This document shows positions 556-23,427 of a stretch of 36,809 nucleotides of DNA, piece by piece; the stretch's first letter is position 1, and each line of letters opens with the position of its first letter. The notes beneath the pieces are model-generated. The model searched no databases. It worked only from the letters and a program-made list of their open reading frames with translations, and had not been told where the DNA came from. The stretch comes from Pseudomonadota bacterium (GTDB taxonomy: Bacteria; Pseudomonadota; Gammaproteobacteria; Xanthomonadales; Rhodanobacteraceae): contig JAGWMU010000007.1 of assembly GCA_028873095.1 (NCBI GenBank), positions 1 through 36,809 of the forward strand, in the 5' to 3' direction. A program made the translations under genes and the position numbers.

Positions 556-699
556 CAATGCTCTCAACTTGGCGAAAATGGCGATGTCGTCATCCCGGCG
601 AAAGCCGGGATCCAGCGTCTTTCATCACGTTTCGAAGGCACTGGATTCCGGCTTTCGCCGGAATGACGAGCTTTGAGATCCGTTAAGTCGAGAGCATTG
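556..699 (+). repeat. MITE/REP-like element copy A (144 bp), terminal inverted repeats plus two internal hairpins
   Basis: CAATGCTCTCAACTT...AAGTCGAGAGCATTG termini; internal TCATCCCGGCGAAAGCCGGGATCCAG and CTGGATTCCGGCTTTCGCCGGAATGACGA; near-identical inverted copy at 2545-2688. Confidence 0.9.
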
Positions 700-2508: not shown

Positions 2509-2544
2509 CGGTTTCCGTCACGGACCGGCAGGGCGGTCGTCCGC

Positions 2545-2688
2545 CAATGCTCTCAACTTAACGGATCTCAAAGCTCGTCATTCCGGCGAAAGCCGGAATC
2601 CAGTGCCTTCGAGACGTGATGAAAGACGCTGGATCCCGGCTTTCGCCGGGATGACGACATCGCTATTTTCGCTAAGTTGAGAGCATTG
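2545..2688 (-). repeat. MITE/REP-like element copy B (144 bp), inverted relative to copy A, with flanking target-site duplication
   Basis: Reverse complement matches 556-699 with about 4 differences by eye; direct repeat GGTCGTCCGCC at 2535-2545 and 2689-2699. Confidence 0.9.
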
Positions 2689-3040
2689 GGTCGTCCGCCC
2701 TGCCGCGGCGCACAAAAAAACCCGACTTGCGCGTCGGGCTCGCGGCGGAATCACGGTCGGAGAGGTACCGCTTCCACTGCCGGTGTGTTGCTGTCGGGTA
2801 CGAACCGGCGAACCCCGTGTTGCCTGGCAACATTGTAAGCGAGGTTGCCAGCCGACAGAACGGCGAAAAGTGCGGCATAACGCCCATTTGCAGCGTTCCA
2901 GGCGGGATGCGCAGGGGCATTTCGCCGCAGTTGCCGGCGGCGCGGCCGACCCCCACTATGGGCCGTCGCGGTGGCGGTCCCCGCGATCCGCGCCCGCACG
3001 GCGCCGGATCTCGCCGGCCGCCATCCGCCCCGGCCGGCGC

Positions 3041-5638: not shown

Positions 5639-6304
5639 ATGACGCTGCCCACTGTCGAACACGAAACCGCCGCCCACCCCACCCACAGCGTGATCTGGCT
5701 GCACGGCCTGGGTGCCGACGGCAACGACTTCGCGCCGATCGTGCCCGAACTGGTGGCGCCGGGCTGGCCGGCATTGCGCTTCGTGTTCCCGCATGCGCCG
5801 GTGCGGCCGGTGACGATCAACAACGGCATGTCGATGCGCGCCTGGTACGACATCGCCGGATTCGATCCGCATGCTCGCCAGGATGAGGCCGGCATCCGCG
5901 CCTCGATGCGCGAGGTGGAAACCCTGATCGCCCGCGAGCATGCCCGCGGCGTGCCCGGCGAACGGATCGTGCTGGCCGGCTTCTCGCAGGGCGGCGCGAT
6001 CGCCCTGGCGGCGGGCCTGTGCCACGGCGGGAAGCTCGCCGGCATCATCGCGCTGTCGACCTATCTGCCGATGTCCGCCACGCTGGTCGCCGAACGCGGC
6101 ACGGCCAACGCCGCCACGCCGATTTTCTGGGGGCACGGCACGGCCGATCCGGTGGTGGTGCTGCAGCGCGGCGTCGATTCGCGCGACCGGCTGCGGTCGC
6201 TGGGCTACCCGCTGGACTGGCATACCTACCCGATGGCGCACGCGGTCTGCGTCGAGGAAATCGCCGACCTGCGCGCGTGGCTGGGCCAGCGCCTGCTCCC
6301 GTAG
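5639..6304 (+). CDS. Carboxylesterase / phospholipase (alpha/beta hydrolase, acyl-protein thioesterase-like)
   Basis: VIWLHGLGADGNDFAPIVPEL, GFSQGGAIAL nucleophile elbow, WGHGTADPVV, YPMAHAVCVEEI. Confidence 0.9.
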   Translation: MTLPTVEHETAAHPTHSVIWLHGLGADGNDFAPIVPELVAPGWPALRFVFPHAPVRPVTINNGMSMRAWYDIAGFDPHARQDEAGIRASMREVETLIAREHARGVPGERIVLAGFSQGGAIALAAGLCHGGKLAGIIALSTYLPMSATLVAERGTANAATPIFWGHGTADPVVVLQRGVDSRDRLRSLGYPLDWHTYPMAHAVCVEEIADLRAWLGQRLLP

Positions 6305-6375
6305 GAGCCCACTCTGCGGGCGAATGTTTTTTGCCGCATTCGAGAAGAGCATTCGCGCACAAGGTGCGCTCCTAC
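6301..6375. repeat. Palindromic repeat, GTAGGAGC...GCTCCTAC family, copy 1
   Basis: gtaggagcccactctgcgggcgaatg...cattcgcgcacaaggtgcgctcctac; its TAG is the stop codon of the esterase gene. Confidence 0.8.
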
Positions 6376-10638: not shown

Positions 10639-10715
10639 GCAGGAGCGCACCCTGTGCGCGCAAGCATTTGTCACGGTTGCCGGAAAGAGCTTTCGCGCAC
10701 AGGGTGCGCTCCTAC
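10639..10715. repeat. Palindromic repeat, GTAGGAGCGCACCCTGTGCGCG family, copy 2 (intergenic)
   Basis: gcaggagcgcaccctgtgcgcgcaag...ctttcgcgcacagggtgcgctcctac; long hairpin between permease and zinc-finger gene. Confidence 0.85.
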
Positions 10716-20834: not shown

Positions 20835-21509
20835 ATGGAATGGCTCATGTCAATCGGCAGCAGGTCGGTGTCCGGCTTCGGCGAGTGCGAGGCGCCGACC
20901 TCGGCAGGGTTCGATCAGGATCGTCTTCGGGCATCCCGGACAACCCCGGTACGTAGGAGCGCACCCTGTGCGCGAAAGGACATTGCAATGCGAGACCGGA
21001 AGGTTCGCGCACAGGGTGCGCTCCAACGACGGGTGCCGGGAACACGGGGGTCCGGGATTTCCCGGCGCGGCAGCGCGGGCTTCACCCTGATCGAACTGAT
21101 GATCGTGGTGGCGATCATCGCCGTGCTGACCGCGATCGCGTATCCGGCGTACACCAGCTATCTCCTCAAGACCCGCCGCGCGGCGGCCGAGGGTTGCCTG
21201 TCGGAATACGCCAATTACATGGAGCGGTACTACACCACCAATCTGCGCTACGACAAGGACGGTTCCCCGACACCGGTGACCAACCCGTTGGGGGTAACGC
21301 TGACCCTGGACTGCGCCTCGCCCCAGCAGACCGGGGACAACTACGGCTACACCGTGCCGACAGAGAGCGCTACTGCCTACACCGTTCAGGCCGCGCCCGT
21401 GGCGGGCTCGCCGCAGGCCAAGGACACCTTGTGCGGCACGCTTACGCTGGACCAGAAGGGCACGCGCAACATAGTGGGCGGCACGGGCACCGTGGACCAG
21501 TGCTGGTAG
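20835..21509 (+). CDS. pilE: Type IV pilin PilE (start uncertain: 20835 has a good SD; 20988 ATG lies within a repeat)
   Basis: GFTLIELMIVVAIIAVLTAIAYPAYTSYLLKTRRAAAEGCLSEYANYMERYYTTNLRYD; SD aagga 7 nt before ATG 20835; frame open from 20835 through the repeat at 20953-21027. Confidence 0.8.
   Translation: MEWLMSIGSRSVSGFGECEAPTSAGFDQDRLRASRTTPVRRSAPCARKDIAMRDRKVRAQGALQRRVPGTRGSGISRRGSAGFTLIELMIVVAIIAVLTAIAYPAYTSYLLKTRRAAAEGCLSEYANYMERYYTTNLRYDKDGSPTPVTNPLGVTLTLDCASPQQTGDNYGYTVPTESATAYTVQAAPVAGSPQAKDTLCGTLTLDQKGTRNIVGGTGTVDQCW
20953..21027. repeat. Palindromic repeat, GTAGGAGCGCACCCTGTGCGCG family, copy 3 (in pilE leader coding region)
   Basis: gtaggagcgcaccctgtgcgcgaaagg...ttcgcgcacagggtgcgctccaac; 75 bp; read in frame as RRSAPCARKDIAMRDRKVRAQGALQ. 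Confidence 0.88.
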
Positions 21510-21543: not shown

Positions 21544-23427
21544 TCACACACCCAGGCGTTCGCGCAGGCCGCCCTGGCGCTGCACCGGGCGGCTCAGCGC
21601 CGACCGCAGCGCGGCGTCGGTACACCAGATTTCGGCGTGGCTTTGGGCGCGCGAGACCGCGGTGTAGACCAGTTCGCGGTTGAGCACGCGGTTGTCCGCA
21701 TCCGGCGGCAGCAGCACCGCCACGTCGCGGTATTCCGAGCCCTGGCTGCGGTGGACGGTGATCGCCCAGGCGCTGTCGTGGGCGGGCAGCGCGCGCGGCG
21801 AAAAGCTGCGCAGGCCGGCGCTGCCGTCGCGGTCGCTCAGCTCGAACCACACGCGCAGCCCCTCGCTGCCTTCCAGCGCGATGCCGACGTCGCCGTTGAA
21901 CAGGCCGCGCGCGTAGTCGTTGCGGGTGACGATCACCGGCCGGCCGTGATACCAGGCGCGGCCGGCGTCGATGCCGCAACGGGCGCCGAGCCGCCGCGCG
22001 ACCAGCGCATTGACCCCGTGCGCGCCGAACGGCCCGTCGCGCAGCGCGCACAGGATCTGCAGCTGGCGCAGGTTCCGCAATGACGCGCCGGCGTCGCCGG
22101 GCGCGGTCAGCAGCGACTGCAGCAGCGCGCCATGGCGTTCGATCCAGCCGTCGACGCAGGCGCGCAGGCCGTCGGGATCGGCGCAGCGGCGCAGTTCCAG
22201 GTCGCCGTCGGCCCGCGTGCTCAGCAGCCGGTCCAGCCAGGCCGGGTCGGGGGCCTGGCGCAGCGCCTCGATGCCGCGCTGCAGGCCGCTGCCGGCGCGC
22301 CAGGAATGGGTCAGCGTGAGCACCTGGCCGGCCAGCGCGGCGTGCTCCGTCACCCTGGCCGGCGCGTGCTGCAGCAGCGGCGCGAGCAGACCGGCCAGCG
22401 CCGGCGGCAGCTGCTCCGGCGGCGCGCTGGCGACGATGTCGGCAAGCACCGAGCCGGCCTCGACCGAGGCGAGCTGGCCCGGGTCGCCGAGCAGGATCAG
22501 CAGCGCCTCGGGACGCATCGCCTCCAGCAGCTGGCGCATCATCGCCAGATCGACCATCGATGCCTCGTCGACCACCACGATGTCCTCGGCCAGCGGATCG
22601 TGCGGCCCGCGGCTGCAGGCGTTGTCCATCGGCCGGTAGCCGAGCAGGCGGTGCAGCGTGCGCGCGTCGGCATGCGGTATCTGCTGTAGGAGCGCACCCT
22701 GTGCGCGAAAGAAGTCGCCATGCGGCAACGTGTTTTCGCGCACAGGGTACGCTCCTGCGGGGTCGAGTGCGGCTTGCAGCTCGGCCTTGCCCCTGGCGAT
22801 GGCCTGCACCAGGCGCTGGGCGGCCTTGCCGGTGGGCGCGGCCAGCGCGATCGACGGCCGTGCCGGCAGGCCGCAGGCCCTGGCGTGGCGCAGCAGCATC
22901 AGCAGCATGCGCACGACGGTGGTGGTCTTGCCGGTGCCGGGGCCGCCGGTGAGCACGAACAGGCGCGCGCCGGGCACCGCGGCCACGGCGGCGCGCTGCC
23001 CATCGGTGCTGCCGCGCGGCATGCCGGCGAACAGCGCCTCCAGGTCGGCGGCCAGCGCGTCGGCGGGAATCGGCAGCGAGCGCTGCGCGCAGCGCCGCAG
23101 GATCGCCGCGGCGAGCTGCGCCTCGTGCCGCCAGTTGCGCCAGAGGAAGAAGCGGTTCTGCGCGTCGAGCACGAACGGCGTGAACGCCGATCCGTCGCCG
23201 ACCCAGGCGTGCGCGCGCAGCGCGTCCAGCGCAGCGGCATCGAAGCCGGCATCGGTGTGCGGGTCGGCGAGCCACGCGCAGGAATGGCCTTGGCCCTCGG
23301 CGCGGCCGGCGGCCCGCACGGCCGCGGCCAGCGGCGCCGAGCCGGTGCGCCGGAACACCCATTGCGCCAGGGTCTGGTCGATCGCGCGTTCGTCGGCGGC
23401 GTCGGCGTCGATCATGGGGCGATTCAT
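21544..23427 (-). CDS. recD: Exodeoxyribonuclease V subunit alpha (RecD)
   Basis: LTGGPGTGKTTTVVRML Walker A; APTGKAAQRL; ARTLHRLLGYRP; VVDEASMVDL; AITVHRSQGSEY; ELVYTAVSRAQ; ATGA overlap with recB. Confidence 0.96.
   Translation of the reverse strand: MNRPMIDADAADERAIDQTLAQWVFRRTGSAPLAAAVRAAGRAEGQGHSCAWLADPHTDAGFDAAALDALRAHAWVGDGSAFTPFVLDAQNRFFLWRNWRHEAQLAAAILRRCAQRSLPIPADALAADLEALFAGMPRGSTDGQRAAVAAVPGARLFVLTGGPGTGKTTTVVRMLLMLLRHARACGLPARPSIALAAPTGKAAQRLVQAIARGKAELQAALDPAGAYPVRENTLPHGDFFRAQGALLQQIPHADARTLHRLLGYRPMDNACSRGPHDPLAEDIVVVDEASMVDLAMMRQLLEAMRPEALLILLGDPGQLASVEAGSVLADIVASAPPEQLPPALAGLLAPLLQHAPARVTEHAALAGQVLTLTHSWRAGSGLQRGIEALRQAPDPAWLDRLLSTRADGDLELRRCADPDGLRACVDGWIERHGALLQSLLTAPGDAGASLRNLRQLQILCALRDGPFGAHGVNALVARRLGARCGIDAGRAWYHGRPVIVTRNDYARGLFNGDVGIALEGSEGLRVWFELSDRDGSAGLRSFSPRALPAHDSAWAITVHRSQGSEYRDVAVLLPPDADNRVLNRELVYTAVSRAQSHAEIWCTDAALRSALSRPVQRQGGLRERLGV
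22686..22758. repeat. Palindromic repeat, GTAGGAGCGCACCCTGTGCGCG family, copy 4 (inside recD, in frame)
   Basis: gtaggagcgcaccctgtgcgcgaaaga...ttttcgcgcacagggtacgctcctgc; translated on the recD strand as AGAYPVRENTLPHGDFFRAQGALLQ. Confidence 0.92.

Follow-up and report, generated by a model that had tools for sequence, protein, structure and literature searches.

A MITE with IS4-type ends and a CGTC REP dimer core in a genome of the Rhodanobacteraceae

REPs of the CGTC class have no dedicated transposase according to the 2013 survey that defined the class, in which their movement was tentatively attributed to an enzyme now extinct or else to "a broad spectrum of transposases" (PMC3733652). 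The IS4 subgroup of the IS4 family is characterised by ends of the form -AATR--------WTW and direct repeats (DR) of 10-13 bp (PMC2266710). Our search of the literature on the REP sequence described below, and on MITEs in Rhodanobacter, found nothing relevant. Here we analyse a short element, copy B, located in a window (the whole stretch of DNA analysed, 36,809 nucleotides of contig JAGWMU010000007.1 from a Rhodanobacteraceae draft genome, G000), and conclude that it is almost certainly a non-autonomous MITE of the IS4 family, showing the end features of the IS4 subgroup and having a REP dimer as its core. That copy B is a MITE is well supported, while the general claim about how CGTC REPs spread is one that we infer.

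Copy B, its target and its sister copies

The features of the copy B locus, in window positions, are the following.

2526..2536, no strand: left arm of a perfect 11-bp target palindrome, CGGCAGGGCGG, loop TCGT, the insertion target of copy B
2535..2544, no strand: left target-site duplication (TSD) of copy B, GGTCGTCCGC, present as a single copy in the empty sites of genomes G021 and G037
2545..2688, + strand: MITE copy B, 144 bp, with no coding capacity of its own
2545..2560, + strand: left terminal inverted repeat (TIR), CAATGCTCTCAACTTA, an IS4-type end identical to the ends of the L075 and G032 ISs
2576..2602, + strand: CGTC-1 type REP, tag CGTC, stem ATTCCGGC/GCCGGAAT, loop GAAA, tail CCA
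2630..2656, - strand: second CGTC-1 type REP, tag outward, stem ATCCCGGC/GCCGGGAT, forming a head-to-head dimer with the first
2673..2688, - strand: right TIR, a perfect inverted copy of the left TIR
2689..2698, no strand: right TSD, GGTCGTCCGC
2695..2705, no strand: right arm of the target palindrome, CCGCCCTGCCG

The original prediction had placed copy B at 2545-2688 with two internal REP-like hairpins, and both the coordinates and the hairpins (2576-2602 and 2630-2656) proved correct, while the lengths of its repeats needed revision. Its TIRs, put at about 15 bp, do exist and are 16 bp long and perfect, with CAATGCTCTCAACTTA at the left and the complement at the right. An 11-bp flanking direct repeat is likewise present, from which a TSD of 8-11 bp had been proposed; since the left TIR begins with the 11th base of that repeat (C), the duplication proper is exactly 10 bp on both sides. 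Copy B lies within the 70-300 bp expected of a MITE, has no transposase gene, and has a predicted folding energy of -70.9 kcal/mol, against a mean of -35.5 kcal/mol for shuffled sequences (z = -9.5). The element had also been described as a MITE rather than a REP palindrome; transposition is indeed supported, and only the contrast fails, because the core of the MITE is a REP dimer and copy B is therefore both.

When the flanks of copy B were joined at one copy of the TSD they matched contig C46 of G021 and contig C92 of G037 without interruption (87% and 85% identity, respectively); the element is absent from both contigs, and the empty sites lack the TIRs as well. The joined flanks of another host copy, D, matched contig C20 of G037 and many other congeneric genomes from which the element is absent, the junction region being poorly conserved in the more distant ones, and for a further copy, C, part of one flank only was matched, in G037. 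The search for empty sites in related genomes that had been suggested as a check thus succeeded for B in G021 and G037 and for D in G037, giving the combination of TSD and empty sites that is expected of a MITE, and the opposite outcome, with other copies devoid of a TSD and all relatives occupied, did not materialise.

Removal of copy B together with one TSD restores CGGCAGGGCGG-TCGT-CCGCCCTGCCG, a perfect 11-bp hairpin, and the empty site of G021 contains a shorter palindrome, GGGGCGG-TCGT-CCGCCCC. Copy B lies near the centre of the target hairpin, so that the hairpin of the MITE is nested within that of its target. We considered a general preference for palindromes and rejected it: by eye, no clear palindrome is recognisable at the targets of C and D or at two of the three G032 targets, and the insertion of copy B into one is a single case. 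The neighbourhood of the B site in G021 has been hit independently by another type of MITE, an IS5-type element containing the same REP dimer (G021:C46:5934-6056, L303), a few hundred bp past the empty site.

Collecting further copies, another of the suggested checks, revealed four full MITE copies and one hybrid in the host genome, the dispersal expected of a MITE. Copy C (G000:C53) has the same geometry as copy B and a perfect 10-bp TSD, GCGGGAAACG on both sides; the flanks of copy D (G000:C22), (G/A)CCCCGACCC, match at 9 of 10 positions; and copy A, for which no TSD was found, lies in the window.

556..699, - strand: MITE copy A, inverted relative to copy B, with no 10-bp TSD and only GGGG on each side
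588..614, + strand: REP of copy A, CGTCATCCCGGCGAAAGCCGGGATCCA
642..668, - strand: second REP of copy A

The inverted copies A and B share 97% identity over 148 nt. Where the host has copy A, G021 and G037 have a glutathione S-transferase (GST) gene following the ABC-2 transporter gene; in the host the GST gene is gone, and copy A separates the transporter gene from the sequence further on. The corresponding region of G021:C46 is at approximately 1929-2883, and the gene is missing from the host at the edge of copy A (556-699). Copy A probably lacks a TSD because the GST gene was lost in an event at its right edge, which may have been, for example, a deletion next to it or recombination with a second copy of the MITE. 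The possibility that A and B form the ends of a composite unit or of an invertible segment was rejected, since the intervening DNA is colinear in G021 even without the MITEs. Between the two copies the window contains small ORFs of 90 and 69 aa (1003-1275 and 2299-2508) that have no Pfam match.

IS4-family relatives of the ends

When genome contigs were scanned with the TIR, identical ends turned up in several MAGs of the Rhodocyclaceae and related groups, and an exact scan of viral contigs gave 19 matches. At one locus (L075) both 16-bp ends lie 1346 bp apart around a 398-aa ORF, whose product reaches 136.9 bits with NF033592, the IS4 model of NCBIfam (cut-off 115 bits), has a DDE_Tnp_1 domain and, as read from its sequence, contains the motif Y-HQ-R-WRI-E-EAFKRI-K, the YREK motif expected of an autonomous relative from the IS4 subgroup. 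G032, a congeneric genome, contains 16 occurrences of the TIR; almost all are close to the ends of contigs, and several lie next to the C-terminus of a transposase, a pattern typical of an IS present in multiple copies and left unresolved by the assembly. The IS is seen there solely as ends on broken contigs, never whole. Comparison of the DNA outside its 7 left and 9 right ends gave three left/right pairs that match for exactly 10 bp, and no pair with a match of 8, 9, 11 or 12 bp, which indicates that the TSD of the G032 IS is the same as that of the MITE. The search for a transposase with matching TIRs, also suggested with the original prediction, has therefore led to IS4-family ISs that share the TIR of copy B, as a MITE would share it with an autonomous element. 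The sequence CAATGCTCTCAACTTA fits the end signature of the IS4 subgroup (PMC2266710, Table 1), and the 10 bp duplicated by the MITE copies and by the G032 IS fall within its DR range. The IS231 subgroup, with ends that begin CAT, was rejected, since the ends found here begin with CAATG as in the IS4 subgroup.

No match to the transposase was found in the host genome itself, an 82%-complete draft MAG; multi-copy ISs often fail to assemble in draft genomes. Intact relatives of 1349 bp, in which one end is the same and the opposite end has a single difference, were observed on an Aeromonas and an Enterobacter plasmid (L262 and L263); the two are the same IS4-family IS, with the same transposase accession, and no matching TSD was found around either. 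The sequence common to the MITE and the ISs seen is limited to about 20-24 bp at each end, and given that they have no further internal sequence in common, the MITE did not arise from one of those ISs by internal deletion alone.

The REP dimer inside and outside MITEs

The core of copy B has all the features that define a CGTC-1 REP dimer (PMC3733652), namely CGTC tags facing outward, 8-bp stems, 4-nt loops and CCA tails. Rfam gave sub-threshold matches only, the best being to Wolbachia sRNA 46. In the same window we also observed four inverted pairs of TAGGAGCGCACCCTGTGCGCGAA-type repeats (6303-6375, 10641-10715, 20952-21028 and 22684-22759); they resemble REP dimers with GTAG tags, and would represent another class of REP.

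The same dimer is found in Rhodanobacter inside MITEs with at least three unrelated types of TIR, two of them IS4-type (TSDs of 10 and 11 bp) and one IS5-type (TSD of 4 bp). The type-2 TIR, GAATGGCACTTACTTAAG, is present in 28 of the 45 genomes, often paired around the REP dimer, and several of the resulting elements have exact 11-bp TSDs; type-2 ends also bound IS4-family transposase genes, in elements of about 1.5 kb, one of which has an 11-bp TSD. Four loci (L197, L204, L206 and L214) combine type-2 ends with a different palindromic core, of the CTGAGCGTAG...GAAGTCGAAGG type, so that these ends carry more than one kind of palindrome. At ten of the sampled loci the dimer lies within type-3 TIRs, GGAAYGTCTGAAYAAGC, and six of these loci have an exact 4-bp TSD, mostly CTAR-like. 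In G043 a type-3 end is found next to an incomplete IS5-family transposase, a 124-aa fragment that scores 81.7 bits, below the cut-off of 140 for the whole protein. TIRs of types 4 and 5 are limited to a few of the loci seen. A hybrid MITE that combines an IS4 type-1 end with a type-2 end at the opposite side occurs in the host (G000:C28:5254-5395, L005) and at the same genomic place in a second species (G021:C114:4069-4202, L106).

TIR-like ends were observed at 17 of 40 loci (one-sided in one case and degenerate in another), in a non-random sample picked by similarity to the core of copy B, in which counts are not independent and TIR types were assigned partly by inspection. A dimer was present at the same place in another sampled species for 14 of the 23 TIR-less loci (five positions) and for none of the 17 TIR-bearing ones; TIR-less dimers occupy older, shared positions. 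In 1.2 Mb (three 400-kb samples, from G021, G016 and G008) there are 27 head-to-head dimers, of which 10 are flanked on either side by TIRs of one type. This fraction may be biased upward, as the samples were partly drawn from contigs or regions already known to contain dimers or TIRs; among random 60-mers, a TIR label of whatever type is present in about 1%.

One may consider explanations for copy B other than transposition of a MITE. The REP dimer could itself be the mobile unit, having inserted by its own REP/RAYT-like route into a pre-existing palindrome, the "TIRs" being merely the two halves of the target. The palindromes around the CGTC-1 dimers of H. neapolitanus were read as target palindromes in this way (PMC3733652), and PF01797 tyrosine transposases score above the family cut-off in 35 of the 45 genomes of the genus. 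However, the 10-bp TSD lies outside the TIRs, which must therefore have moved together with the dimer; the empty sites of B and D, having no TIRs, contradict this explanation for both copies; the same TIRs bound transposase genes; and a REP pattern scan of 20 PF01797 loci of the genus gave few matches, of which the five inspected are not CGTC REPs, so that the REPs flanking a tyrosine transposase gene that typify the RAYT/REPIN arrangement were not seen there. We therefore regard it as very unlikely. Such dimers are common in the genus, many of them without TIRs, and copy B might accordingly be an ordinary REP/BIME palindrome with a chance repeat on its flanks; yet an exact 10-bp match at a fixed position has a probability of about 1e-6 per copy, two copies have one and a third matches at 9 of 10 positions, and identical ends are found on ISs, so that this explanation is scarcely credible.

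A more serious alternative concerns only the origin of the core: an IS4-type MITE and a REP dimer may have met once by chance, the dimer having inserted or recombined into a small IS4 relic, in which case copy B would reveal no general rule by which CGTC REPs spread in MITEs. Most TIR-less dimers cannot be shown ever to have had TIRs, and the type-1/type-2 hybrids are consistent with exchange across a shared core. The variety of TIR types and TSD lengths around the same dimer, together with the share of dimers that have matching TIRs on both sides in the three genomes, argues against a single meeting, which we consider quite possible without favouring it. The reading of copy B as an IS4-type MITE is common to this alternative and to our own, broader proposal, that CGTC REP dimers are an interchangeable core of MITEs, with ends derived from different DDE families (IS4 and IS5), and that bare dimers are largely fossil MITEs; this we put forward tentatively, as a proposition just short of even.

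Proposed mechanism and comparison with known systems

Judging from the shared ends and TSD length, an IS4-type transposase probably moves the MITE in trans. The DDE transposase of a related IS4-subgroup IS would recognise the 16-bp ends CAATGCTCTCAACTTA, cut out the 144-bp element and paste it elsewhere with 10-bp staggered joins, generating the 10-bp TSD; the cut-and-paste chemistry is assumed by analogy with other IS4-family members, for which it is established. The REP dimer would be carried along as cargo, a role suggested by the presence of the same dimer within the ends of another IS4-type and of an IS5-type element in the genus. Over time the ends would decay while the hairpins persist, a hypothesis consistent with the age pattern described above, and copy A would later have lost one flank in the event that removed the GST gene.

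CGTC REPs may therefore spread as MITE cargo, and copy B is a clean case of the second option of the 2013 survey, combining a single REP dimer with the ends of a named transposase family and having both an exact TSD and empty sites. With the same dimer found in the ends of several ISs, the question of how CGTC REPs move becomes directly testable. Copy B also points to one route by which a MITE can be built, a self-complementary REP pair being set between borrowed ends.

Of the known systems, the IS4 subgroup (De Palmenaer et al. 2008, PMC2266710) has the same end signature, a TSD range that includes that of the MITE, and a single-ORF transposase with Y-2-R-3-E-6-K, as in the autonomous relative, whereas the MITE has no transposase; the subgroup is stated to span 1400-1650 bp, and L075, at 1346 bp, is slightly shorter and is placed in it by ends, TSD and motif. 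Other bacterial MITEs (RUP, Correia/NEMIS, ERIC and Nezha) are likewise short, non-coding, bounded by TIRs, able to fold into hairpins and thought to be moved in trans; what sets the present element apart is its core, a REP dimer that belongs to a recognised class and is also found in MITEs with unrelated ends. CGTC-1 head-to-head dimers, which include dRS3 of Neisseria (Di Nocera et al. 2013, PMC3733652), share the outer CGTC tag, 8-bp stem, 4-nt loop and CCA tail, and likewise consist of two opposite units whose stems differ, but they were described without a dedicated transposase, whereas the dimer analysed here sits in a MITE with a TSD; a palindrome of H. neapolitanus from the same survey (GGGaaGCTT-GAAAaACC...) resembles, by eye only, TIR type 5. 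Finally, REPINs and RAYT-mobilised BIMEs (PMC2817692) also consist of an inverted REP pair that forms one long hairpin, but they are of the GTAG type, are tied to IS200/IS605-like tyrosine transposases and have neither the TIRs of a DDE element nor a larger TSD.
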